From assembly GCA_002256245.1 (NCBI GenBank), contig NKIU01000001.1, positions 1 to 64,000 of the forward strand: 64,000 bases of DNA, read 5' to 3'. The notes under the pieces were generated by a model, which did no database searches, was not told where the DNA came from, and was given only the letters and a program-made list of their open reading frames with translations. Positions 21,884 to 35,412 of the stretch are shown piece by piece. A program made the translations under genes and the position numbers. Position 1 is the first letter of the stretch, and each line of letters begins with the position of its first letter. The DNA comes from Pseudorhodobacter sp. PARRP1 (GTDB taxonomy: Bacteria > Pseudomonadota > Alphaproteobacteria > Rhodobacterales > Rhodobacteraceae).

Positions 21884-22960
21884 TTAAACTGCACCCATCC
21901 CATCGTCGAACGTCGACACCAAACTCAGCAGTTTGCCGATAATCCGTTCCACAACTGATTTGCGTTCAAGAATCTTGGGCTTTACTGCCAAAGCCTCAAC
22001 GATCTCGCCTTGCAATGGGCGCTTTCCAGAAAAATGATACTGTTCGATCATTGCTCTGAACGCCAAAGGGTCGATGCGTTCCGCCTCGCAGATGTCCTCA
22101 ATCGCGCTTAACCTTTCGACATTCCAAAAGTCAGCAAACGCCGCCTGAACATCTTGCCCCGCGGTTAGGGAGGGCATGTGCTGTTCTATGAACTTTTCGA
22201 TAAGGTCGCGCTTACTCCGTAGGTGCCGTTCGCTGCCCAAGAGATCAGCAACCAGTTTCCGCTTCGCCGTCGATGCACCGCGAATCTTTGGGTCCAAGCT
22301 GGGGGCGCAGCGCCATCAGCACCTTGTCGCTTTCGTGCAGCACGATGTATTTCGCCACCATCTTCGACATGTGGCACTTTTCAAGGAAGGCATCGGCGAA
22401 GGCGTCGATCTGGGTGATCAGGGTGTTGTCTTCACTGGCCCAATAAAAGGTCTGCTTGAAATCCTGATCGCGGTTGTTGGCGTAGTATTTCGTGTTCACC
22501 CCGTTCGAGATGACAAACAACTGCACATACTGGAACAGGCCCGCGTCGGCCCAATACGAATGGCGCTGATAGCGGTTGATCTGGTTGAAGGCCTCTTTCA
22601 GCTCTAACCCGCGCCGCTTTAGCTCGATCTGCACAAGGGGCAGGCCGTTGACCAAAAGCGTGATGTCATAGCGGGTTTTGTGGTGGCCCTCGACGGTCAC
22701 CTGCGTCGTTACCTGATACTGGTTGCGACACCATTCGTCGCAATTCAGCAACTGGATATAGGCCGAGGTGCCATCATCTTGCGCCAGATGCATCCGCCCG
22801 CGCAGAGTTTTGGCGCGTTCAAACACATTGCCCTTGTCCAGATGGTTCAGCACGCGGGCAAATTCGGTGTCAGACAAGGTGATGTTGTTCTGGATGCCCA
22901 GTTGCGCGCGCAGGTTGGCGTGCAGGGCGGTTATGTCTGGGATGGTGACAGGGGCATAAT
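21884..22960 (-). pseudogene. hsdR: HsdR (type I restriction R subunit), helicase core deleted
   Basis: Two ends of one HsdR are joined with the middle missing. About 22960-22312 encodes the N-terminal nuclease region: TRYDITLLVNGLPLVQIELKR is the PD-(D/E)xK core, with NQINRYQRHS and VQLFVISNG after it. It runs to LHESDKVLMALRP, where a normal HsdR goes on into the ATP-binding helicase. Here the frame switches near 22312 into the C-terminal region, ending at 21884 (RKLVADLLGSERHLRSKRDL, EQYHFSGKRPLQGE). Walker motifs are absent and the first 20-30 residues are also lost. Roughly two thirds of a usual 1,000-residue HsdR is gone, so it cannot restrict DNA. No intact hsdM or hsdS is nearby. Confidence 0.88.
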
Positions 22961-23105
22961 GCGTGACTTGTAGCCTTATTCGCCTGCCAACCATTTGAAG
23001 AACGCCTTCAACGCGCGAAGGGTGCCGTCGATAGTTGCCTTTGACAAAGCCTTGCCCGTGCGTCTGTTCTTTTCTGCCTCTAGCTTTCTCCAAGAGATTT
23101 GCCGC
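22960..23105 (-). pseudogene. Tyrosine integrase fragment, N-terminal domain
   Basis: One reading frame of this segment, read leftward, gives LEAEKNRRTGKALSKATIDG followed by LRALKAFFKWLAGE, then a TAA stop, then GYKSRI. This matches the SAM-like core-binding domain of site-specific integrases, where GE is normally followed by P-GYKSR. A premature stop therefore replaces one codon, and the gene breaks off into hsdR sequence near 22960. Only this domain is present; the catalytic domain is not. It is not the same protein as the C-terminal integrase piece at 23298-23555. Confidence 0.68.
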
Positions 23106-23297
23106 TGCATTCATGATTTCGGATGGTTGGTAGTTTTCTGGCCCGACTCGGTCAAATTCCAGTTTTTCAATGTTCGCGATCATAAGGCCCTGCAACTGAT
23201 CTCGCGGGCTTTCGGGAAAGTGAAACGCGGCGAGCATTCGATGATATGCATTGTTTGCCAAGTTTATGCCGTCGTCAGAAAGGACAATATGGCGCAT
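23050..23297 (-). pseudogene. Unidentified protein, 5' fragment
   Basis: An ORF begins with ATG at 23297, immediately after the stop of the integrase fragment, and reads MRHIVLSDDGINLANNAYHR with a helical, moderately charged composition for about 80 codons. It then runs out of its own frame into the integrase and hsdR remnants. I do not recognise the family. The tight junction TGA-ATG with the preceding integrase frame suggests it was the next gene in the original element. Its 3' part is lost. Confidence 0.5.
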
Positions 23298-23555
23298 TCA
23301 GAGCCTCACGATCTTTGCTTCCTTGCGCTCGTCGGCAAGGAACGCACCCCATTCTCGCATCATCCGCCGACGTTTCTCGATCATGTCACCACGGCGATAT
23401 GCTGCTTCAACAGCGTTGCTGATCCTATGCGCCAAGGCGGCTTCCGCCTTCTCGCCGGGATAATTTGCCTTTTCGGCAATCCAATCGCGGAAAGCAGATC
23501 GCAGGCCGTGCGGAACGGCAGGGCATTTTGACAGGTCCCGGCCGTTCGCCGCCAT
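23298..23555 (-). pseudogene. Phage-type tyrosine integrase, C-terminal fragment
   Basis: About 85 codons of a prophage-style integrase C-terminus: PHGLRSAFRDW contains the catalytic HxxR, ALAHRI the next conserved His, and EAAYRRGD the nucleophile Tyr, followed by the EKRRRMMREWGAFL tail. The N-terminal arm, core-binding domain and first catalytic Arg are missing. The sequence becomes IS3 orfA in another frame near 23535-23545. Such integrases commonly insert at tRNA genes, which fits the tRNA-Ser about 1.6 kb away. Confidence 0.85.
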
Positions 23556-23793
23556 CGCGCTGGACCGGTCGCATCCAGACGCGAAGGCTGTCCGGAGAGC
23601 AGCCCAATTTGCCCGCGATCGCTGTCAGCGCCGCAGCTTCGCTTTGATACTCATCGCGGTGTTCCATCGCCAGCCGCACCGCACGCTCGCGAAACTCGGG
23701 TGAATACGGCTTCAAGGTCTTCTTCTTTGATGCCTGTTCCACAGCGGGCAATTCTCGGAGAGTTTTGCCCTCCGGCAAACCCGGCGCGGTTCA
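23535..23793 (-). mobile_element. IS3-family remnant (left end and partial orfA)
   Basis: Read leftward, the left inverted repeat TGAACCGCGCCGGGTTTGCC begins at 23793. OrfA follows with KPYSPEFRERAVRLAMEH, then the helix-turn-helix LTAIAGKLGCSPDSLRVWMR, to QRDGGERPGP. There it breaks into the integrase fragment. OrfB and the right end are absent, so the element cannot move. It also truncates the 3' end of the gene at 23712-24347, showing that the insertion came after that gene was in place. Confidence 0.82.
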
Positions 23794-25061: not shown

Positions 25062-26924
25062 TCACAGAATAAGGTCGGTGCTTGCGTCAAACGCCGTGCC
25101 CACCCCGGTCAGGTCAATCTGACGGTCCACGCCCAGATTGGCGTCGATGTTGATCTGCAACCGCGACAGGCCGGCATCCCAGCGGATCTGCCCCGCCCCG
25201 GTGAACGCCCCGGTGACAAAGGTCAGCCCCAGCCCGGCAAAACTGACCTGATCGACGCCCGACACAAAATCGGTGATCCGGTCGCGCGACGCGTTGCCGG
25301 TGTCGTTGAACGCCAGGAACACAAACAGATCCGCCCCCGTCCCCCCGGTCATCGTGTCAAACCCGGCCCCGCCCACCAGCGTATCCGCCCCGCTGCCGCC
25401 AACCAGGCTGTCATTGCCCACCCCGCCCAGCAGGCTGTCGGCCCCGATGCCGCCATAGAGCCTGTCGTTGCCGGCCCCACCGTCCAGCGTATCGTTACCG
25501 CCGCTACCTTCCAGCTCATCCTGCCCCGCGCCGCCCGCCAACAGGTTCGCGTAGGCGTCGCCGTACAATTGGTCGCCAAAGGCCGAGCCGGTGACGTTCT
25601 CGATCCCGATAAACACGTCGGCGAAGGCATCGCCAATGAAGCCGCCCCCGTTTGTAAGATCGACACCCACGGCGCTGGCCGAGCTTGCATAGGACAAGGT
25701 GTCGATCCCCTCGCCGCCATCAATCGAATCGATCCCGACCCCGGCCCCGTCGATCAACATATCGTTGCCCTCGCCGCCCGATAGCGAGTCGGCACCACTG
25801 CCACCATCCAGGGTGTCGTTACCCTCGCCACCGGACAGATTGTCGGCTCCATCACCGCCATACAACTGGTCGCGACCGATGCCACCGTCCAGCACATCAT
25901 CCCCGCCACCGCCATAGAGACGGTCGTTCTGCGCACCGCCATACAGGGCGTCACTCTCATCACCACCGTCCAGCATATCGTTGCCAGTGCCGCCATACAG
26001 GGTTTCGGTGCCCCCACCACCCGTCAGCGTATCATGGCCCGCGTCACCATAAAGCTGGCCGCCATTCGGGGAATTGGACGAGACGCTCAGGTTGTCATTC
26101 CCCGCCCCGCCATAGAGGACTTCGGCGCCGGTTGCTGTAGCAATGTCCGCGCGGCCCCTCAGCACGTCATTCCCTTCACCGCCATACATCAGGCTTGCGC
26201 TGGACATATTGCCGGTCAGCAGATCGTTGCCGGTGCCGCCATACATTTGCCCACGTTCGCTCAGCGCCAAGTCATCATCGCCGCTACCACCATAGAGGCT
26301 ATCGGTATCAAAGCCCCCGCGCAGGATGTCATTGCCGGTGCCGCCATAGAGCGTGTCGTTGCCAGACCCGCCATCGATGCTGTCGTTGCCCGCATTGCCC
26401 AGCAGGCTGTCGTGGCCGTCGCCGCCGAAGATCGTGTCGCGCCCGCTGCCCGCTTGCAGCACGACATCGTCGCCGTCGCCCAGAATGTAGGTGTTGTTGC
26501 GGATCAGCGCCAGGCTGTGGCTTTCGGCACTGTCGCCCGGTCCGTGCCGGTCGATGCCAGCCGTGCCGTTGATCGTATAGGTCAACCCCCGGAACAGGTT
26601 TTCCAGCGCGAACTGGTTGGTGCCCTCGACATCCGCCCGCGTCGCGTTGCGCAGCGTGGCCGCCGACATCGCCAGATCGGTGAATGAGCAGATCGCGCCC
26701 GCGCCCTGGTCAATGGTGATCGCAGCCACAGTGCCTGCGTTGATATAGTCAACACCCCCGATGTTGGTGATCCCGAACCCGGTGCCCGTCAGGGTAAAGG
26801 TGGTGGAGCCATCGGAAATCACGATCTGGGTGGATGAACTGGCGGTGATCACCGAATAATCCATCGCGGTGACCAACAGCAGCGCGTATTCAACGCTGAT
26901 CGAGAAAAGGTTCAAACTGGGCAT
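25062..26924 (-). CDS. RTX calcium-binding secreted protein
   Basis: A 620-residue protein with roughly thirty GGxGxDxLx nonapeptides between about residues 150 and 570, interrupted by short non-repeat inserts. These form calcium-bound parallel beta-rolls after export. The first 130 residues are Ser/Thr/Gly-rich without catalytic motifs. The C-terminal 75 residues (DRITDFVSGVDQVSF, LSRLQINIDAN) match the M10-type C-terminal region that carries the uncleaved type I secretion signal. There is no Sec signal peptide. The start at 26924 has GGAGAA upstream. No HlyB/HlyD transporter is encoded in the window. It may be an adhesin, surface-layer or enzyme-less RTX protein. Confidence 0.85.
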   Translation of the reverse strand: MPSLNLFSISVEYALLLVTAMDYSVITASSSTQIVISDGSTTFTLTGTGFGITNIGGVDYINAGTVAAITIDQGAGAICSFTDLAMSAATLRNATRADVEGTNQFALENLFRGLTYTINGTAGIDRHGPGDSAESHSLALIRNNTYILGDGDDVVLQAGSGRDTIFGGDGHDSLLGNAGNDSIDGGSGNDTLYGGTGNDILRGGFDTDSLYGGSGDDDLALSERGQMYGGTGNDLLTGNMSSASLMYGGEGNDVLRGRADIATATGAEVLYGGAGNDNLSVSSNSPNGGQLYGDAGHDTLTGGGGTETLYGGTGNDMLDGGDESDALYGGAQNDRLYGGGGDDVLDGGIGRDQLYGGDGADNLSGGEGNDTLDGGSGADSLSGGEGNDMLIDGAGVGIDSIDGGEGIDTLSYASSASAVGVDLTNGGGFIGDAFADVFIGIENVTGSAFGDQLYGDAYANLLAGGAGQDELEGSGGNDTLDGGAGNDRLYGGIGADSLLGGVGNDSLVGGSGADTLVGGAGFDTMTGGTGADLFVFLAFNDTGNASRDRITDFVSGVDQVSFAGLGLTFVTGAFTGAGQIRWDAGLSRLQINIDANLGVDRQIDLTGVGTAFDASTDLIL

Positions 26925-27090
26925 GGCAATGTTCTCCGGGTGCAAAAATGGTTTGCGGATATATCGCCTGCCAACCGGAACCTGCCGCCGCAACCAGCGT
27001 CCCGAAGGGCTTTGCCAAACCAAGGCCGCCTGAATTGGCCAGCCCACTTGCACCACCCCGCTTGCAGCCTGCACCGGGATTGGCTGCAGA

Positions 27091-27309: not shown

Positions 27310-27517
27310 ACCGCCACGCCTCGTTTGCGGGGTTTAGCTTTGGCTGAGGGTGTTGGTGTAAGCGGCGCTCGGGCGTTTGGTGTGCGCGCATCAGCGCGGG
27401 CGGGCTGCGCAGACGGGGCGGGCCTGCCGCGCTTTTCGTGGCGCAAATGGGCGTTGACCTGGCGCAGAGGCTGAGTCATCATCCTTGCAAATACCGGCAT
27501 ATGTCGGATGGCATTCG

Positions 27518-27570
27518 CGCCTCGCGGTTTGGACCTTTGTGAAAGGGTTCAGCGCGGGGCGTTTTTATTT
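27518..27570 (+). terminator. Intrinsic terminator in the amide-operon leader
   Basis: CGCCTCGCG (27518-27526) pairs with CGCGGGGCG (27553-27561) through nine pairs, one G-U, followed directly by TTTTTATTT (27562-27570). The loop contains a smaller ACCTTT/AAAGGGT hairpin. It lies only 14 bases before the amiC start, and the next gene encodes an ANTAR antiterminator. An upstream hairpin, CCGGC-ATAT-GTCGG (27494-27507), may be part of the antitermination target. This arrangement is the hallmark of AmiR/NasR-type control. Confidence 0.75.
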
Positions 27571-27583
27571 GGGGCGGTGCAGG

Positions 27584-28663
27584 GTGAAACGTCACATCGA
27601 ACTGGGGTTGCTGCATTCGCGCTCGGGCAGCTATGCGCTGCTGTCGCAGGCCAGCCTGACCGGGGCGATGGCGGCGATTGCGGCGATCAACGCCGATGCG
27701 ACAATGCCGCTGACCTTTGCGCCGGTGCTGCGTGATCCGGGTGGCAATGCCGATGCTTACGGGCCGCTGTGCGAGGAAATCCTGCGCGACAGCACCGCGC
27801 GGCATGTGGTAGGCTGTGTCACCTCGCTCAGCCGCAAAGAGGTGATCCCCAGCCTTGAAAAGCTGGACGGCACTTTGTGGTATCCGCTGCCCTACGAGGG
27901 GTTTGAGGCATCCGACCGGGTGGTTTACACCCATGCCTGCCCCAATCAGCACCTGCTGCCGCTTCTGGATTGGGCCATGCCAGCGCACGGGCGGCGGGTA
28001 TATCTGACCGGGTCGAATTACATCTGGGGCTGGGAGATCAACCGTCTGGCGCGGATGACCATTGTCGAGGCGGGGGGCACGATCCTGGGCGAGCGCTATC
28101 TGCCGATTGGGGCCACGGATGTGGGGCGGATGATTGATGAAATTCGCGCCACCCGCCCGGATTTCGTGCTGAATTCGTTGGTGGGGGCGTCGTCTTATGC
28201 GTTCTTGCGCGCCTATCATGCGTTGGGCTTGACGGATGCGCGCTTCAGCCCCGACCGTTGCCCGATGCTGTCGTGTAACTTCACAGAATGTGAATTGCCG
28301 CCCTTGGGTGAGGCCGCGGAAGGTTTGATTGCGGCGGGGCCGTATTTCCGGGGCAGCGCGGGCTGGCCGGGCGGCGATTTCGGCTCATCACATGAGGCTG
28401 CGAGTTATGCGGCGGTCAGCGAACTCGCGCGGCTTTTGGCCTATCATGGGGAAGGCTCCGAGGATTGGCCGCTGTCGCAACTGCTGGCGGGGGCTGGCGG
28501 GCCGGTTGATCCGGGCAACCATCACACCACGCTGCCGGTGATCATCGCGCAGGTGCGGGGCGGCGCGTTCAAGGTGATCCAGCATCGCGGGCAGGTGTCG
28601 GGCGATCCGTTCCTGTCGCGCAACCAGACCTCGACCGTGCAGCCGTTGCGGGTGGTGTCATGA
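27584..28663 (+). CDS. amiC: AmiC-like amide-sensing periplasmic-binding-fold protein
   Basis: A 359-residue type I periplasmic-binding fold protein without a signal peptide, as in cytoplasmic AmiC. N-terminal HIELGLLHSRSGSYALLSQ and later VYLTGSNYIWGWEINRLAR (about 135-153) match the AmiC/FmdD/urea-ABC receptor group. AmiC binds AmiR and holds it inactive until a short amide enters its cleft. The GTG start at 27584 has GGGGCGG upstream; the longer frame runs through the leader terminator. The last four bases overlap amiR (ATGA), giving the fixed stoichiometry expected for a sensor-antiterminator pair. Confidence 0.85.
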   Translation: MKRHIELGLLHSRSGSYALLSQASLTGAMAAIAAINADATMPLTFAPVLRDPGGNADAYGPLCEEILRDSTARHVVGCVTSLSRKEVIPSLEKLDGTLWYPLPYEGFEASDRVVYTHACPNQHLLPLLDWAMPAHGRRVYLTGSNYIWGWEINRLARMTIVEAGGTILGERYLPIGATDVGRMIDEIRATRPDFVLNSLVGASSYAFLRAYHALGLTDARFSPDRCPMLSCNFTECELPPLGEAAEGLIAAGPYFRGSAGWPGGDFGSSHEAASYAAVSELARLLAYHGEGSEDWPLSQLLAGAGGPVDPGNHHTTLPVIIAQVRGGAFKVIQHRGQVSGDPFLSRNQTSTVQPLRVVS

Positions 28664-29265
28664 AGCGGCAGGTGGGCAATCAGCACCTAGGCGGCGCGCG
28701 CGCGGTGATCCTGCACCGCCCGCACCTGAACGTGCTGGCACTGACGCGGCAGTTGCGCGCGATTGGGCTGGTGGTGGACGAAGCTTGGCCGGAACTGGGG
28801 CCGCAGGCTATGGCCGCCGATTTCATCTTTTTCGATGCCGATATGGGCTATGACGCGCAGTTTCCTTGGGGGGCGGGCGAGGCACCTATGCCGATGATCG
28901 CGATGATCGGGTCTGAAGCGCCGGGGCGGATTGAATGGTCATTGCAGATCGGCGCACATGCGCAGCTTTTGAAGCCGATCACCGGCAGCGGGGTTTATTC
29001 GGCGGTGCTGATCGCGCGCGATGCGTTTGATCGCGAGCGCGCACTGGCGGCCGAAATCGCCGATCTGCGGCGCAGGCTGGATGAGCGGCAAACCGTGGTG
29101 CGCGCCGTTATGCTGTTGATGCAGATGGGGAAGTCTGAGGCAGAGGCTTACGGCCAGCTGCGCCAGATGGCGATGGCTTGGCAGATCAGTTTCGAGGATG
29201 CGGCGTTGCGCGTTGTGGCGCGCTATGCAGCGGAGGGCGGCGATGACCAGCGCAACCGGGGTTGA
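28660..29265 (+). CDS. amiR: AmiR-like ANTAR transcription antiterminator
   Basis: A 201-residue protein. The N-terminal part (about 12-115) is a pseudo-receiver domain: IFFDADMGYD replaces the usual phosphorylated Asp pocket, as in AmiR. A coiled coil (about 125-150, DRERALAAEIADLRRRLDE) leads into a C-terminal ANTAR domain (about 150-195) with VVRAVMLLMQMGKSEAEAY and the LRQMAM helix. ANTAR proteins bind leader RNA and prevent terminator formation; the leader terminator at 27518-27570 is the evident target. It overlaps amiC by four bases and the first permease gene by 23. Confidence 0.85.
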   Translation: MKRQVGNQHLGGARAVILHRPHLNVLALTRQLRAIGLVVDEAWPELGPQAMAADFIFFDADMGYDAQFPWGAGEAPMPMIAMIGSEAPGRIEWSLQIGAHAQLLKPITGSGVYSAVLIARDAFDRERALAAEIADLRRRLDERQTVVRAVMLLMQMGKSEAEAYGQLRQMAMAWQISFEDAALRVVARYAAEGGDDQRNRG

Positions 29266-30124
29266 TTTCGCGCCCAAAGGCGCTGTGCGGCGGCTGATGG
29301 ATCGCAAGCTGGCGGTGTTCGGCATGGTGCTGATCGTCCTTGTGGTCGCGGGCGCGGTGTTCGCGCCGTGGATCGCACCGTTTGCGCCCGATCAGCAAAA
29401 CTTTGACGGGCTGACGATAGAGGGCGCGCCGATGCCGCCGGGCGGGGCCTATCTGATGGGCACCGATCTGTTGGGCCGTGATCTGTTCAGCCGGATACTT
29501 TACGGCGCGCGCACCTCGCTGATCATCGGGGTGGTGGCGAATGGGCTGGCGCTTCTGATCGGCACGCTGGTGGGCATCACGGCGGGGTATTTCCGCGGCT
29601 GGGTCGGCGCGGTTCTGATGCGGTTTACCGATCTGATGATGGCGTTTCCGGCGCTGTTGCTGGCGATTTGTCTGGCGGCGATCTTCTCGCCCTCGCTGTG
29701 GATCGTGGCGCTGGTCATCGCGCTGGTGAACTGGGTGCAGACCGCGCGGGTGATCTATACCGAGACGACCTCGCTTGCCACGCGCGACTTTATTGCGGCC
29801 GAGCGGACTTTGGGCGCTGGCACCGGGCGGATTTTGTTCAAACATATCCTGCCGCATCTGGTGCCGACGATCATCGTCTGGGGCACATTGGGGATCTCGA
29901 CCACGGTGCTGCTGGAGGCGACGCTGTCTTTCCTGGGCGTGGGCGTGCAGCCGCCGACCGCGTCCTGGGGCAATATCATCTTTGAAAACCAGACCTATTT
30001 CCAATCCGCACCGTGGCTGGTGTTCATTCCGGGGGCGGCGATCATCCTGCTGGCGCTGGCGTTCAATCTGGTGGGCGATGCCTTGCGCGATGTGCTGGAC
30101 CCAACCCAAAGGGGGCGCGGCTGA
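29243..30124 (+). CDS. DppC-like ABC transporter permease
   Basis: A 293-residue inner-membrane permease of the oligopeptide/dipeptide type. After an N-terminal helix (about 24-44), a periplasmic segment contains GTDLLGRD, the usual DppC/OppC hallmark. The EAA loop, ERTLGAGTGRILFKHILPHL (about 187-206), contacts the ATPase. The start at 29243 has GGAGGG upstream and lies within the amiR 3' end. With DppB it forms the channel of a five-component importer. Context argues for short amides or related small solutes in place of peptides. Confidence 0.9.
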   Translation: MTSATGVDFAPKGAVRRLMDRKLAVFGMVLIVLVVAGAVFAPWIAPFAPDQQNFDGLTIEGAPMPPGGAYLMGTDLLGRDLFSRILYGARTSLIIGVVANGLALLIGTLVGITAGYFRGWVGAVLMRFTDLMMAFPALLLAICLAAIFSPSLWIVALVIALVNWVQTARVIYTETTSLATRDFIAAERTLGAGTGRILFKHILPHLVPTIIVWGTLGISTTVLLEATLSFLGVGVQPPTASWGNIIFENQTYFQSAPWLVFIPGAAIILLALAFNLVGDALRDVLDPTQRGRG

Positions 30125-31044
30125 TGCCGACTTACATCTTGCGCCGCCTGCTGCAATCGGCCCTGATCCTGCTGGGCGTCAGTTTCATCACGTTTTTCCT
30201 GCTGTTCGTGCTGCCCGCCGATCCGGTGCGCCAGATTGCGGGGCGGTCGGCCACCGCAGCACAGGTGGAAAGCATCCGGCACGAATTGGGGCTGGATCAG
30301 CCGTTTCTGGTGCAGTTTGGCCATTACCTTGGCGGGCTGGTGCAGGGCGATCTGGGCCGCAGCTATCTGCAGAAATCCGAAGTCTCGGTGCTGATCGCCT
30401 CGCGCCTGCCTGCGACCTTGCTGCTGATGGTGGCGGCGATTTTCTGCGAGTTGGTGATCGGGCTTGCGATGGGCATTGTCGCCGCCCTGCGCCGCGACAG
30501 CTTTACTGATCAGGCGTTGATGATGACCTCTTTCGTCACAGTGTCAGCCCCGCAATTCGTGGTCAGCCTGCTGATGCTCTATGTGTTTGCGGTCAAACTC
30601 GGCTGGTTCCCGATTGGCGGTTACGGCACGTTTCGGCATCTGGTGCTGCCTGCGGTGACCTTGGGCATCCTGGGTTCGGGCTGGTATAGCCGCATGATGC
30701 GCTCGTCCATGATCGACGTGATGCGAACCGATTATATCCGCACCGCAAGGTCGAAGGGGCTGACCCGTGCGCGAGTGGTGTTGGGCCATGCTTTGCCCAA
30801 CGCCATTCTGCCGATTATCGCGATGATCGGCATTGATATCGGCGTGTTCATGGGCGGCATCGTGGTGGTCGAGTCTGTGTTCGGCTGGCCCGGTATTGGC
30901 CAGCTTGCGTGGCAAGCCATCCAGCGCATCGACATTCCGATCATCATGGGGGTGACGCTGGTGTCTGCCGTGGCCATCGTGCTGGGCAACCTGCTGGCCG
31001 ACCTGATCGCGCCGTTTATCGACCCCAGAATCAAACTCAAATAA
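30124..31044 (+). CDS. DppB-like ABC transporter permease
   Basis: A 306-residue permease, starting MPTYILRRLLQSALILLGVS, with six predicted membrane helices and the EAA loop DYIRTARSKGLTRARVVLGH (about 200-219). FGWPGIGQL near 258 is the conserved C-terminal loop of DppB/OppB. The start codon shares one base with the dppC-like stop (TGATG), so the two are coupled. Gene order permease C, permease B, binding protein is inverted relative to the classical dppABCDF. Confidence 0.9.
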   Translation: MPTYILRRLLQSALILLGVSFITFFLLFVLPADPVRQIAGRSATAAQVESIRHELGLDQPFLVQFGHYLGGLVQGDLGRSYLQKSEVSVLIASRLPATLLLMVAAIFCELVIGLAMGIVAALRRDSFTDQALMMTSFVTVSAPQFVVSLLMLYVFAVKLGWFPIGGYGTFRHLVLPAVTLGILGSGWYSRMMRSSMIDVMRTDYIRTARSKGLTRARVVLGHALPNAILPIIAMIGIDIGVFMGGIVVVESVFGWPGIGQLAWQAIQRIDIPIIMGVTLVSAVAIVLGNLLADLIAPFIDPRIKLK

Positions 31045-31068: not shown

Positions 31069-32685
31069 ATGAAGAAACTGCTCGCTTCGACTGCCCTGAT
31101 GCTGGCCCTGTGCGGCCCCATGGTGGCGCAGGAATACACCCCCGATCCGGCTGCCAAACAGGGCGGCTCGATCGTGATGACCTATAAGGATGACGTGGCC
31201 ACCTTGGACCCGGCGATTGGCTATGATTGGCAAAACTGGTCGATGATCCGGTCGCTGTTCGATGGGCTGATGGATTATGTGCCCGGCACCACCGATCTGC
31301 GCCCCGGATTGGCGGAAAAGTATGAGATTTCCGAGGATGGCCTGACCTACACCTTTCATCTGCGCGCGGGTGTGAAGTTCCACAATGGCCGCGAGATGAC
31401 GGCGGATGATGTGAAATACTCGCTGGACCGGGTGACTTTGCCCGCCACGCAATCGCCGGGTTCGGGCTTTTTCGGTTCGATCAAGGGCTATGATGCGATG
31501 GTCGGCGGCACCGCTACCAGCCTTGAGGGCGTGACTGTGGTTGATCCGCTGACGGTGAAAATTGAACTGTCGCGCCCCGATGCCACCTTCCTGCATGTCA
31601 TGGCGATCAACTTCTCATCCGTGGTGCCGAAAGAGGCGGTTGAGGCTGCCAATGGCGATTTCGGCAAGATGCCGGTGGGCACGGGTGCGTTCAAGATGAA
31701 GGAATGGACGTTGGGCCAAAGCCTGATTTTCGAGCGTAACACCGACTACTGGCGCAAGGGCGAGCCCTATCTGGACCAGATCACCTATGAATTCGGGCAG
31801 GAACCCATCGTCGCGCTGCTGCGCTTGCAGAATGGCGAGATCGACATTCCCGGCGACGGTATTCCGCCCGCGAAGTTCACCGAAGTGATGGGCGACCCGG
31901 CGCAGAAGGCCCGCGTGGTGCAGGGCGATGTGCTGCACACCGGCTATATCACCATGAACGTCACCGCGGCCCCGTTCGACAAGGTCGAAGTGCGGCGCGC
32001 GGTGAACATGGCGATCAACAAAACCCGCATCGTGCAGGTGGTCAACAACCGCGCGGTGCCAGCCACGCAACCGCTGCCGCCCGCGATGCCGGGCTACACC
32101 AAGGACTATGCGGGTTATCCGTTTGACGTGGAAGGTGCCAAGAAACTGCTGGCCGACGCGGGCTATCCGGATGGGTTTGAGACCGATCTTTACGCGATGA
32201 ACACCGACCCCAACCCGCGTATCGCCCAAGCGATCCAGCAAGATCTGGCCGCCATCGGCATCAAGGCCAACATCCAATCGCTGGCGCAGGCCAATGTGAT
32301 CGAGGCAGGCGGCGCGGGCACCGCCCCGATGATCTGGTCGGGCGGCATGGCGTGGGTTGCCGACTTCCCCGATCCGTCGAACTTCTACGGCCCGATCCTG
32401 GGCTGTGCGGGGGCCGAGGCTGGCGGTTGGAACTGGTCGAAATACTGCAACCCCGATCTGGACAAGCAAGCCGTTGCCGCTGACAGCATGTCGGACCCCG
32501 CCAAGACCGCAGATCGTCTGAAGGCATGGTCGGATATCTACATGAAGGTGATGGAGGATGCACCTTGGGCGCCGGTCTATAACGACCAGCGGTTCACCAT
32601 GAAATCTGATCGCATGGGCGGCGCGGATGCGCTGTTTGTCGATCCGATTGCCACCGTCAACTTTGACTATGTGTATGTGAAATAA
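31069..32685 (+). CDS. ABC transporter substrate-binding protein (SBP_bac_5)
   Basis: A 538-residue periplasmic solute receptor. The signal peptide MKKLLASTALMLALCGPMVA is followed by a mature start QEYTPDPA. The family 5 signature runs around LTYTFHLRAGVKFHNGREM (about 92-110) and DDVKYSLDRV. C-terminal PWAPVYNDQRFTMKS is also typical. AGGAGAG precedes the start. Family 5 members bind peptides, nickel, sugars or small amines. The neighbouring formamidase and amide sensor point to an amide or a compound that yields one, but pocket residues cannot be read by eye. Confidence 0.9.
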   Translation: MKKLLASTALMLALCGPMVAQEYTPDPAAKQGGSIVMTYKDDVATLDPAIGYDWQNWSMIRSLFDGLMDYVPGTTDLRPGLAEKYEISEDGLTYTFHLRAGVKFHNGREMTADDVKYSLDRVTLPATQSPGSGFFGSIKGYDAMVGGTATSLEGVTVVDPLTVKIELSRPDATFLHVMAINFSSVVPKEAVEAANGDFGKMPVGTGAFKMKEWTLGQSLIFERNTDYWRKGEPYLDQITYEFGQEPIVALLRLQNGEIDIPGDGIPPAKFTEVMGDPAQKARVVQGDVLHTGYITMNVTAAPFDKVEVRRAVNMAINKTRIVQVVNNRAVPATQPLPPAMPGYTKDYAGYPFDVEGAKKLLADAGYPDGFETDLYAMNTDPNPRIAQAIQQDLAAIGIKANIQSLAQANVIEAGGAGTAPMIWSGGMAWVADFPDPSNFYGPILGCAGAEAGGWNWSKYCNPDLDKQAVAADSMSDPAKTADRLKAWSDIYMKVMEDAPWAPVYNDQRFTMKSDRMGGADALFVDPIATVNFDYVYVK

Positions 32686-32686
32686 C

Positions 32687-33646
32687 ATGTGCAAAGCCTG
32701 CAACTACACGATCCACGGCGCGCAACACCATTTCGGCTGGGACAATGCCAATCCCCCGGCGGCAAGGGTGGAACCGGGCTCTACGATCTTGTTTCAGTGT
32801 CAGGATTCCTCTGCGGGCCAGCTTGGTCCGCAGTCGAAACTGGCGGATGTGACGGCGCTGGATTTCGGCAAGATCAACCCGGTGTCGGGGCCGATCTATG
32901 TCGAAGGGGCAATGCCCGGCGATGCGATCAAGGTCACGATCGACAGCTTTGCGCCGCGCAGCTTTGACGGGCGCGGCTTTGGCTGGACGGCGAATATCCC
33001 CGGCTTTGGGCTGCTTGCCGATCAATTCCTCGACCCCGCCCTGCATATCTGGAGCTATGATCCGGGGCAAATGGGCCCTGCCCTGTTTGGGCGTGAAGCC
33101 CGTGTGCCGCTGAAACCCTTCGCGGGCACCATCGGCAATGCCTTGGCCGAACCCGGCCTGCACTCGGTCGTGCCACCGCGCCGGGTGGGCGGTAATCTGG
33201 ATATCCGCGATCTGAATGCGGGGGTGACGCTGTATCTGCCGGTCGAGGTGGCGGGGGCGCTGTTCAGCGTCGGTGACACCCATGCGGCGCAGGGGGATGG
33301 CGAGGTTTGCGGCACGGCGATTGAATCTCCGATGGACGTGGTGCTGACGCTGGATCTGGTCAAAGGGGCCAACCTGAAAAACCCGCGTTTCACCACGCCC
33401 GGCCCGGTGACGCGGCATCTGGACGCCAAGGGCTATGAGGTGACAACCGGCATCGGCCCCGATCTGATGGCCGCCTCGCGCGATGCGGTGGCCGGGATGA
33501 TCGACCTTTTGTGCGCACAACGCGGCATGGCGGCGGTCGATGCCTATATGCTGGTCTCGACCTGCGGCGATCTGCGGATTTCTGAGATTGTCGATATGCC
33601 GAACTGGGTGGTCAGCTTCTACTTCCCGCGCTGTGTGTTTGAATGA
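32687..33646 (+). CDS. fmdA: Acetamidase/formamidase (FmdA/AmdA family)
   Basis: A 319-residue enzyme of the FmdA_AmdA family. Characteristic segments are PGSTILFQCQDSSAGQ (about 30-45), ITDDS-like region replaced by NPVSGPIYVEGAMPGD (about 64-79), and FSVGDTHAAQGDGEVCGTAIE (about 188-208; the GDxHAAQGDGE motif carries metal ligands). It releases ammonia from formamide, acetamide or similar. It starts one base after the binding-protein stop and overlaps the ATPase gene by four bases, so it is embedded in the transporter operon. This embedding is the best evidence for the transported substrate. Confidence 0.9.
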   Translation: MCKACNYTIHGAQHHFGWDNANPPAARVEPGSTILFQCQDSSAGQLGPQSKLADVTALDFGKINPVSGPIYVEGAMPGDAIKVTIDSFAPRSFDGRGFGWTANIPGFGLLADQFLDPALHIWSYDPGQMGPALFGREARVPLKPFAGTIGNALAEPGLHSVVPPRRVGGNLDIRDLNAGVTLYLPVEVAGALFSVGDTHAAQGDGEVCGTAIESPMDVVLTLDLVKGANLKNPRFTTPGPVTRHLDAKGYEVTTGIGPDLMAASRDAVAGMIDLLCAQRGMAAVDAYMLVSTCGDLRISEIVDMPNWVVSFYFPRCVFE

Positions 33647-35412
33647 GCGCAGCGCTGCCTGATACCGGGGCCGCGCTGGCCCCGGAAGTGTTGTCTGTTC
33701 AGGGGCTTACCGTCAGCGTTCGCACCCCAGCAGGCGACCGGCCTTTGGTGGAAAACCTGTCGTTCACCCTGCGCCGGGGGGAAACCTTGGCGATTGCGGG
33801 GGAAAGTGGCTCGGGCAAATCCATCACCTCGCTGGCCATCATGGGCCTGCTGCCGCCGCCTGCGGTGCGCATCACGGCGGGTCGGGTCAGCTTGGGCGAC
33901 ACCGATCTGACCAAACTGCCCGAAGCCCAAATGCGCGCCCTGCGCGGTGCCCGGATTGCGATGATCTTTCAGGAACCAATGACCTCGCTGAACCCGGTGC
34001 TGACGGTTGGCGCGCAACTGACCGAGGCGATCCGCGCCCATACCAACGCCACCCGCGCCGATGCGCGCGCGCAGGCGCTGGCAGCACTTCAAGCCGTGCG
34101 GTTGTCGCAGCCCGAACAGCGGCTGAAGCAATATCCACACGAATTATCGGGCGGCATGCGCCAGCGTGTGATGATCGCCATGGCCTTGGCGCTGCGCCCC
34201 GAGGTGCTGATCGCGGATGAGCCGACCACGGCCCTGGATGTGACAGTGCAGCGTGAGGTTTTGGACCTTTTGCGCGATCTGCAACGCGAATTTGGCACCG
34301 CGATCATCCTGATAACGCATGATATGGGTGTGGTGGCGGAAATGGCCGACCGGGTGATTGTGATGAAATCTGGTTGTGCTGTGGAAGAAGCCAGCACCCG
34401 GCAAATCTTTTCCAGCCCGCAAATGCCCTACACGAAAGACCTGCTCGCTGCCGTGCCGCGGATGGGCATGGGCAAACCGCGCTCAGCTACCCCGACCGAT
34501 ACCGTCGCGCGGCTGAGCGATGTGTTGGTGCGCTTTCCGCTGAAAGGCGGCATTCTGGGCCGCACCGTTGCACAGGTTCATGCGGTGGAGCATGTCAGTT
34601 TCGACATCCGGCGCGGCGAAACCTTTGCCCTTGTGGGCGAATCCGGTTGCGGCAAATCGACGATTGCCAAGGCGATTGTGGGCCTTGCCCCGCATCAGGG
34701 CCGCATTGAAATCGCAGGCCAAAGCTTTGCCGATCTGGATGCGGCGGGCCAGAAAGCGCTGCGCCGCCGGGTGCAGATCGTGTTCCAGGACCCGATGGCG
34801 GCGCTTGATCCGCGCATGACCGTGGGTGCGCTGATTGCCGAGCCGTTGCTGATCCACGGCATCGGCAACCTGGCCTCTCAACGCGCCAAAGCGGCGGAAT
34901 TGATGGGCCGGGTGGGGCTGACCGAAGATCAACTCGACCGCTATCCGCACGAGTTTTCCGGCGGCCAGCGCCAGCGCATCTGCATCGCCCGCGCGCTGGC
35001 GTTGCAACCCGATCTGATCATCGCCGACGAATCCGTCTCGGCGTTGGATGTGTCGGTGCAGGCGCGGGTGCTGGATTTGCTGCAAACCTTGCAACGCGAA
35101 TTTGGCATCGCCTTCCTGTTCATCAGCCACGATATGGCGGTGGTCGAGAATATCTCGGACCGGGTGGCGGTGATGTATCTGGGCCAGATCGTGGAAACCG
35201 GCACCCGCGCGCAGGTGTTTGGCAACCCGCAGCACCCCTACACCCGCCGCCTGATCGAAGCGGTGCCGGTGCCCGACCCCAGCCATATCCGCGCCCCCGC
35301 CCCGCGCTTGGCGGGCGAGGTGCCAAGCCCGGTGCATGGCTTGGGCCAAGGCCCCGCGCGCTTGGTGATGCGCGATATGGGCGACGGCCATCTGGTGGCA
35401 CAGCACGCCTGA
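33643..35412 (+). CDS. Fused DppD-DppF type ABC transporter ATPase
   Basis: A 589-residue protein with two complete nucleotide-binding domains. Domain 1 (about 15-270) has Walker A GESGSGKS, signature LSGGMRQRV and Walker B VLIADEPTT. Domain 2 (about 288-560) has GESGCGKS, FSGGQRQRI and LIIADESVS. Each is followed by the oligopeptide/dipeptide C-terminal extension (PYTKDLLAAVP; PYTRRLIEAVP). It powers the importer formed with the two permeases. Single-chain DppDF fusions are known in this family. It is the last gene of the amide operon; the next gene follows after about 70 bp. Confidence 0.92.
   Translation: MSAALPDTGAALAPEVLSVQGLTVSVRTPAGDRPLVENLSFTLRRGETLAIAGESGSGKSITSLAIMGLLPPPAVRITAGRVSLGDTDLTKLPEAQMRALRGARIAMIFQEPMTSLNPVLTVGAQLTEAIRAHTNATRADARAQALAALQAVRLSQPEQRLKQYPHELSGGMRQRVMIAMALALRPEVLIADEPTTALDVTVQREVLDLLRDLQREFGTAIILITHDMGVVAEMADRVIVMKSGCAVEEASTRQIFSSPQMPYTKDLLAAVPRMGMGKPRSATPTDTVARLSDVLVRFPLKGGILGRTVAQVHAVEHVSFDIRRGETFALVGESGCGKSTIAKAIVGLAPHQGRIEIAGQSFADLDAAGQKALRRRVQIVFQDPMAALDPRMTVGALIAEPLLIHGIGNLASQRAKAAELMGRVGLTEDQLDRYPHEFSGGQRQRICIARALALQPDLIIADESVSALDVSVQARVLDLLQTLQREFGIAFLFISHDMAVVENISDRVAVMYLGQIVETGTRAQVFGNPQHPYTRRLIEAVPVPDPSHIRAPAPRLAGEVPSPVHGLGQGPARLVMRDMGDGHLVAQHA

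Follow-up and report, generated by a model that had tools for sequence, protein, structure and literature searches.

A probable AmiC/AmiR-type antitermination switch with a single conserved hexaloop lacking G4 in an amide import operon of Pseudorhodobacter sp. PARRP1

The first 64,000 nt of contig NKIU01000001.1 of Pseudorhodobacter sp. PARRP1, the stretch of DNA analysed here and referred to as the window, contain an operon, amiC-amiR-dppCBA-fmdA-dppDF, whose predicted role is the import and hydrolysis of amides or amide-like compounds. We consider it probable that this operon, including the genes of its own regulators, is controlled by an AmiC/AmiR-type antitermination switch acting via one conserved hexaloop, which lacks a G at its fourth position (G4). 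An initial annotation, made from the sequence of the window, had noted a leader terminator followed by an AmiC/AmiR pair; RNA folding, a U-tract and family matches bear this out. The two overlapping regulatory genes, which it had assigned to an amide-sensor fold and an ANTAR antiterminator, match Peripla_BP_5 and AmiR_N plus ANTAR, respectively.

A sigma-70-like promoter, two small hairpins (P1 and P2), an intrinsic terminator and a U-tract precede amiC in this order (Table 1). From the position of the promoter, transcription is expected to start near 27489-27490. The leader (27470-27583) has a folding energy of -47.1 kcal/mol, compared with -35.65 on average for shuffles (z -3.5), and none of 200 shuffles was as stable. 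The terminator, initially annotated as a nine-pair stem, is longer: a 20-bp interrupted stem consisting of an outer 10 bp, a 2-nt bulge, an inner 10 bp and a 4-nt loop. It ends just upstream of amiC, as had been stated, with 13 rather than 14 nt between the last U of the tract and the GTG start at 27584. P2 and the terminator have positions 27517-27521 in common, the 3' arm of P2 being part of the 5' arm of the terminator, so that the two structures are mutually exclusive. At the gathering threshold, an Rfam search of the window yielded tRNA only.

Related loci were collected by a search for AmiR in the family (394 genomes, 125 of which gave a match at E <= 0.001, weak in most cases), by AmiR_N searches in 390 genomes of the order (70 with a match) and 398 of the phylum (48 with a match), by a protein search in 385 genomes of the class (11 matches at E <= 1e-15), and by a scan of named genomes, from which the best 80 of 375 relatives were taken. 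The closest of these 80 is a Cypionkella metagenome-assembled genome whose AmiR is 94% identical. Together with 38 family and order loci (AmiC at least 50% identical, plus locus L056), the 80 named relatives provided 118 leaders, of which 105 were distinct after 13 identical ones had been dropped.

All 105 distinct leaders, that of the window (L002) included, contain GGC-A-N5-GCC upstream of amiC. The search pattern itself demanded an A at the first loop position (A1), yet no leader failed it, and a version with N6 gave A1 in 38/38. At loop position 4, G is absent from all 105 leaders (C 73, A 19, T 13). Positions 2 (T 48, A 42, C 10, G 5), 3 (T 52, A 22, C 19, G 12) and 6 (C 39, G 35, T 16, A 15) vary, and position 5 is a purine in 104 leaders (G 65, A 39, T 1). 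After thinning to 63 leaders of less than 60% identity, A1 was present in 63/63 and G4 in 0/63; five relatives outside the set, obtained for other purposes (L157, L161, L165, L198 and L199), all have A1 and no G4. The chance of meeting the P2 motif in a shuffled 120-nt leader is 0.013. The initial annotation had directed attention to the upstream hairpin at 27494-27507 (P1) and remarked that it does not have an A1/G4 hexaloop. This hairpin exists, and its loop has neither A1 nor G4 (CCGG-CAUAUG-UCGG or, in the minimum free energy fold, CCGGC-AUAU-GUCGG); the conserved element is P2, which had been overlooked. The suspicion that the RNA target may differ from known ANTAR sites is upheld by the absence of G4 from P2. 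The covariance comparison across relatives that had been proposed for two hexaloop stems recovered a conserved P2 and a covarying terminator; a second hexaloop is not conserved.

A terminator was found in 95 of the 105 leaders, and in 93 of these 95 the GCC of P2 lies within the terminator stem. Forcing P2 to form costs a median of 7.6 kcal/mol; of the two structures P2 is thus less stable, and its formation would require a protein to bind it. In an alignment of 38 leaders (A2), 5 of the 9 consensus terminator pairs show two-sided changes.

The published ANTAR target, as far as the excerpted texts cited here go, is defined as two hexaloops with A1 and G4, the amiE leader included (Ramesh 2012, PMC3369931). 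A study of NasR by SELEX (in vitro selection of binding sequences) found a preference for A1, G4 and a closing C:G pair (PMC7496416), and a survey of actinobacterial ANTAR targets retains A1/G4 and two stems (PMC8164766). According to a structure paper of 2022, A1 has no specific contact and G4 is critical, and EutV contacts the loop through Arg142, Lys149, Glu160 and Tyr164 (G4), as well as through Arg168, Met172, Asn173, Arg175 and Arg177 (PMC8934654). The NasR variants K347R and R340K bind RNA about ten-fold more weakly (PMC7496416); in our reading of the alignment, K347 corresponds to EutV Lys149.

The AmiR of the window matches AmiR_N with 42.8 bits (cut-off 27, E 6e-11) and ANTAR with 38.1 bits (cut-off 27.3, E 1.3e-9), and the profile of its clade matches EutV (6wsh/6ww6) with E 1.1e-8. 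We mapped the EutV residues onto the AmiRs through this alignment with the Protein Data Bank (PDB) chains (chain number minus 2). The lysine present at the Lys149 position in EutV, NasR and P. aeruginosa AmiR is absent from all 105 AmiRs (V 103, I 1, M 1); in the window it is replaced by Val150. Conserved are the equivalents of Arg142 (R 105/105), Tyr164 (Y 100, F 5), Arg168 (R 104) and Met172 (M 104). The equivalents of Glu160 (E 73, D 29, other 3) and Arg175 (R 81, Q 22, K 2) are variable, and Asn173 and Arg177 are retained in 2 and 1 AmiRs, respectively, so the full set of EutV contacts is not present in the 105 AmiRs. Except for that of L011, nearly all clade AmiRs are one residue shorter before the Glu160 region. 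The loss of G4 from P2 thus appears to go with the loss of a G4-contacting residue from the AmiR clade.

We infer from this comparison that the switch would operate as follows. Without ligand, AmiC would hold AmiR, the leader would fold into the terminator, and little of the operon would be read. Binding of a ligand to AmiC would release AmiR, which would bind P2 as it emerges from RNA polymerase and keep the GCC at 27519-27521 out of the terminator, allowing the polymerase to continue. The readout would be one hexaloop with A1 and no G4, the upstream hairpin being mostly structural or absent. As amiC and amiR lie 3' of the terminator, readthrough would produce more AmiC and AmiR, resulting in positive feedback.

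P1 and its spacing from the promoter bear on the number of hairpins that are recognized. In A2, all five P1 stem pairs show two-sided changes, and 81% of cells pair; 24 of 500 shuffles reached the observed number of two-sided pairs and 0 of 500 the covariation score. A2 comprises 38 of 71 thinned leaders, which we chose from the long-spacer class, and the P1 covariation is valid for this subset; the other 33 include the short class and several leaders without a visible P1. The distance between the -10 box and P2 is bimodal. Under strict criteria, a -35/-10 pair is present in 73 of the 105 leaders, with distances of 25-35 nt in 59, 20-22 nt in 3 and at most 17 nt in 11, one of which (L027) is plainly misassigned. 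Looser scoring by inspection places 17 of the 105 in the short class, after 7 more short rows had been dropped as misassigned promoters. With inferred start sites, the short-class leaders seem to have about 6-10 nt of RNA ahead of P2, leaving no room for P1, and by script P1 is absent in 12 of these 17. Defluviimonas denitrificans (L113), which has the same leader as L018, is among the short-spacer species. In a sister AmiR lineage (L189, L191-L194 and L057), P1 has a loop of 4-5 nt, e.g. CCGC-GAAAA-GCGG, and lies directly 5' of P2; from these loops, the wider AmiC/AmiR family may also be without a second hexaloop.

The published model, in which one dimer reads two A1/G4 hexaloops in turn, holds that a single hexaloop is the minimal binding site and that termination is prevented only if the dimer contacts both (PMC8934654, excerpts). 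The leaders described here depart from it: compared with the published targets, they appear to keep A1 and to drop G4 and, mostly, the second hexaloop. Among the literature matches listed, which cover titles and abstract openings of mostly freely available papers, no single-hexaloop or G4-less ANTAR leader is described. We tentatively propose, while leaning slightly to the side of doubt, that the clade AmiR uses a rewired ANTAR-RNA code in which a single G4-less hexaloop is read. The change of the G4-contacting lysine to valine, together with a one-residue deletion in the loop that follows, would make this possible, and some members of the clade would antiterminate at the very 5' end of the transcript with no second hairpin to be recognized. 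Such natural leaders could be used to test the need for two hexaloops and to identify the protein residue that determines the base at position 4. As the covariance search of 2012 was seeded with dual A1/G4 hairpins (PMC3369931, excerpts), leaders of the G4-less single-hexaloop kind could escape it.

AmiR loci outside the clade of the window were also compared. We tabulated 24 leader elements by eye, in part from a scan of 77 loci of which 8 had no AmiR match. We omitted loci without P2 at the terminator, matches inside genes and clade-1 loci, as well as L143, L146 and L149 (no lysine, no G4), the second site of L199 (ATTCGC) and L041, which has A4, an unassigned residue at the lysine position and a terminator that follows an unrelated gene. 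G4 is present in 5 of 5 elements with the lysine (L035, L042 twice, and L177-L179 taken as one lineage with two leaders), which gives a Fisher p of 0.011, uncorrected for kinship, against the elements without it. With L041 as lysine, p becomes 0.039, and adding the no-lysine L143 and L146/L149 brings it to 0.027. A strict coupling of Lys149 and G4 was rejected, since 6 of the 19 elements whose AmiR is without the lysine also have G4. Among 19 distant loci (17 scannable, with differing layouts), paired A1/G4 hexaloops ahead of U-tracts gave one match, L042. L177, L178 and L179, whose AmiR has the lysine, contain two separate P2-type leaders, both with G4: GAGC-AGGGCA-GCTC before amiC, and GGC-AAGGAT-GCC between amiR and the gene of a second AmiC-like binding protein. 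In another AmiR lineage (L040, L045, L047, L038 and L046), a terminator lies between amiR and a gene that by eye resembles a carbon-nitrogen hydrolase; the hairpins of L040 are ACGGC-AAGGTT-GCCGT (A1/G4) and GGC-TATGTA-GCC (T1).

It is improbable, in our assessment, that the leader is a two-hexaloop target in which AmiR binds P1 and P2 in turn, as for EutV and NasR, even though two hairpins precede the terminator and P2 resembles the published sites (PMC3369931, PMC7496416, excerpts) in its overlap with the terminator, its A1 and its closing C:G pair. A script for P1-like hairpins (at least 4 bp, loop of 4-8 nt, end 0-8 nt 5' of P2) found one in 74 of the 105 leaders, of which part is chance (shuffle mean 23.6, max 35). 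Their loops have 4 (11 leaders), 5 (29), 6 (15), 7 (17) or 8 nt (2). A is the first base in 10 of the 15 hexaloops, and upstream A1 hexaloops, sought without a position limit, were counted in 22 of the 105 leaders, compared with 10.3 on average and at most 17 in shuffles; both counts speak for a second site. The combination A1/G4, in contrast, is found in 2 of these 15, and upstream in 5 of 105 leaders, which is the chance level (shuffle mean 2.9, max 7). The lack of G4 from all P2 loops and the roughly 17 leaders that seem to have no room for P1 also oppose it, as does the linker between P1 and P2, which in the window is 2 nt (27508-27509), whereas those of eut leaders are 5-12 nt and one of 3 nt is harmful (PMC3369931, excerpts). 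We consider it very unlikely that the terminator is a plain attenuator, partly read through at all times, and that AmiR acts elsewhere. The loss of several EutV RNA contacts from AmiR would suit this view, but A1 and the upstream GGC are conserved though the terminator needs neither, the equivalents of Arg142, Tyr164, Arg168 and Met172 are kept almost throughout, and the 150 of 4807 first-look candidates scored in the genome include no other convincing target. We give even less credence to GGC-N6-GCC being a DNA operator, just 3' of the promoter, for a DNA-binding regulator that leaves the terminator unregulated. In the window, the inverted repeat does sit 28-39 bp after the -10 box; it is, however, asymmetric (A at position 1 in 105/105, T at position 6 in 16/105), and it overlaps the base of the terminator in 93/95 leaders, as expected for an ANTAR RNA. 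A sigma-54 reading of GGCA...GC was rejected, since its spacing is unlike the GG-N10-GC of sigma-54 promoters and a sigma-70-like promoter lies upstream.

Several observations weigh against a switch based on one G4-less hexaloop. The excess of upstream A1 hexaloops speaks both against it and against a rewired code; in a minority of roughly 10 leaders, P1 may itself be a second A1 hexaloop, and P1 is still found by script in 5 of the 17 short-class leaders. The occurrence of G4 in distant elements without the lysine points in the same direction. The P2 stem is invariant in A2 (3/3 pairs), so covariation cannot prove that P2 forms, and the script saw no terminator in 10 of the 105 leaders. In the consensus terminator, the purine at position 5 is the partner of a U-tract base (columns 49 and 96) and may therefore be conserved because it serves the terminator; for the lack of G at position 4 we see no such explanation. 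Finally, the window contains GGCAN5GCCYCG 7 times, compared with 1.4 times in shuffles, and in a genome this rich in GC the bare motif is frequent, so that the weight of the P2 motif comes from its position and conservation. The bare pattern GGCANNNNNGCCYYG, with 258 hits, was discarded as a genome-wide search tool. At the distant AmiR locus L172, the P2 stem is swapped (GCC-AAATGA-GGC), the sole stem reversal noticed and a hint that the P2 hairpin itself forms.

A covariance model (R1), built from A2 and with rough E-values, was applied to 35 loci that are short-class or more distant; it recovers 31 of them at E < 0.001 and misses L035, L042, L057 and L172. In the genome, the best R1 leader adjoins amiR (54 bits, E 2.3e-13), 150 of 4807 first-look candidates having been scored, and the single ANTAR match is AmiR itself. 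With one ANTAR match and one convincing leader, the switch looks private to the amide operon within this scope. A second candidate target, C7:330660-330755 (29.1 bits, E 2.9e-5), has a GGC-AATCTC-GCC hairpin; despite its good nominal E-value we rejected it by judgement, as it has no U-tract and runs antisense to a gene with a NUDIX match (Pfam E 3.9e-9).

The arrangement resembles the P. aeruginosa amidase operon, in which an AmiC-fold sensor beside an ANTAR antiterminator and a leader terminator are likewise linked to an amidase. The initial annotation had proposed that the switch drives a Dpp-type transporter where Pseudomonas has amiE; the transporter is there, and the operon also encodes an amidase. 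Here the regulator genes come first behind the leader, the operon includes a Dpp-type importer, and AmiR is without the lysine of its P. aeruginosa counterpart. The amidase belongs to the FmdA/AmdA family and not to that of P. aeruginosa AmiE, which we take to be a nitrilase-type enzyme. The amiE leader is published with two A1/G4 hexaloops, which the present leader does not have (PMC3369931, excerpts). With EutV/eutP of Enterococcus faecalis it shares the overlap of P2 with the terminator, A1 and the equivalents of Arg142, Tyr164, Arg168 and Met172; it differs from that system in having no G4, no Lys149 and no conserved second hexaloop, and in that a pseudo-receiver beside AmiC takes the place of the phosphorylated receiver of EutV. 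NasR/nasF of Klebsiella oxytoca is similar in that an ANTAR protein reads hairpins that block a terminator, and the closing C:G pair of P2 matches that of the NasR selection; the lysine of NasR and its preference for A1/G4 are both changed here (PMC7496416, excerpts).

The amiC product has the type I periplasmic-binding-protein fold of AmiC, with AmiC (1pea) being its second-best PDB match after 8tg1 (E 4.3e-39), and no signal peptide was visible by eye. We compared 103 of the 105 AmiCs, those long enough, at the positions that we take to form the acetamide pocket of P. aeruginosa AmiC (Tyr83, Ser85, Tyr104, Thr106, Tyr150 and Tyr152). The equivalents of Ser85 and Tyr150 are kept in 103/103, and Tyr104 is also kept. 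Tyr83 is replaced by V, I, T or M in 103/103, Thr106 is Thr in 6/103 and mostly V, C or L, and Tyr152 is changed to W. Because the pocket is partly changed, AmiC may bind a different amide, or an amide-like compound of larger size that a Dpp-type importer could take up. The amidase reaches 124.7 of the 500 bits required by the NCBI formamidase equivalog, and with a score so far below the cut-off its substrate may not be formamide.

The amiC and amiR genes overlap by ATGA (28660-28663), and the genes after amiR overlap or sit 1-24 nt apart. The order of the seven genes on one strand is kept in 74 of the 80 named relatives, a few of which have larger gaps ahead of dppDF; in the other 6, downstream genes are missing at or near the end of the available sequence.

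Table 1. Positions of the leader elements and operon genes in the window.
Feature	Position	Strand	Evidence
Sigma-70-like promoter, TTGACC-17 nt-CATCAT	27454..27482	+	9/12 consensus positions, shuffle mean 0.1
P1 hairpin, 4-5 bp, variable loop	27494..27507	+	Fold; covariation in chosen subset
P2 mini-hairpin, GGC-AUUCGC-GCC, proposed AmiR site/antiterminator	27510..27521	+	Conservation across leaders
Intrinsic terminator stem	27517..27562	+	Fold; comparison across leaders
U-tract UUUUAUUU	27563..27570	+	Sequence
amiC, 359 aa, GTG start, amide-sensor fold	27584..28663	+	Peripla_BP_5 E 6.9e-76; PDB 1pea AmiC E 3.5e-38
amiR, 201 aa, AmiR_N + ANTAR	28660..29265	+	Pfam; 1qo0_D AmiR E 6.5e-17 (clade profile)
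dppC-type permease	29243..30124	+	BPD_transp_1 and OppC_N
dppB-type permease	30124..31044	+	BPD_transp_1
dppA-type solute-binding protein	31069..32685	+	SBP_bac_5 E 8.6e-103
FmdA/AmdA-family amidase	32687..33646	+	PF03069 E 1.4e-56
Fused DppD-DppF-type ATPase	33643..35412	+	Two ABC_tran and two oligo_HPY stretches

Upstream of the amide operon and divergent from it, the first gene that matches a known family encodes an RTX calcium-binding repeat protein (25062-27074, minus strand; nine HemolysinCabind stretches and Peptidase_M10_C). As it lies on the opposite strand, the leader terminator does not serve to end it. Farther upstream, a type I restriction gene, hsdR (21884-23297, minus strand), is split, with its HSDR_N and EcoR124_C pieces in two frames, which suggests that it has decayed. 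A weak transposase-like HTH_Tnp_1 match, just below the cut-off, is located near it at 23425-23778.

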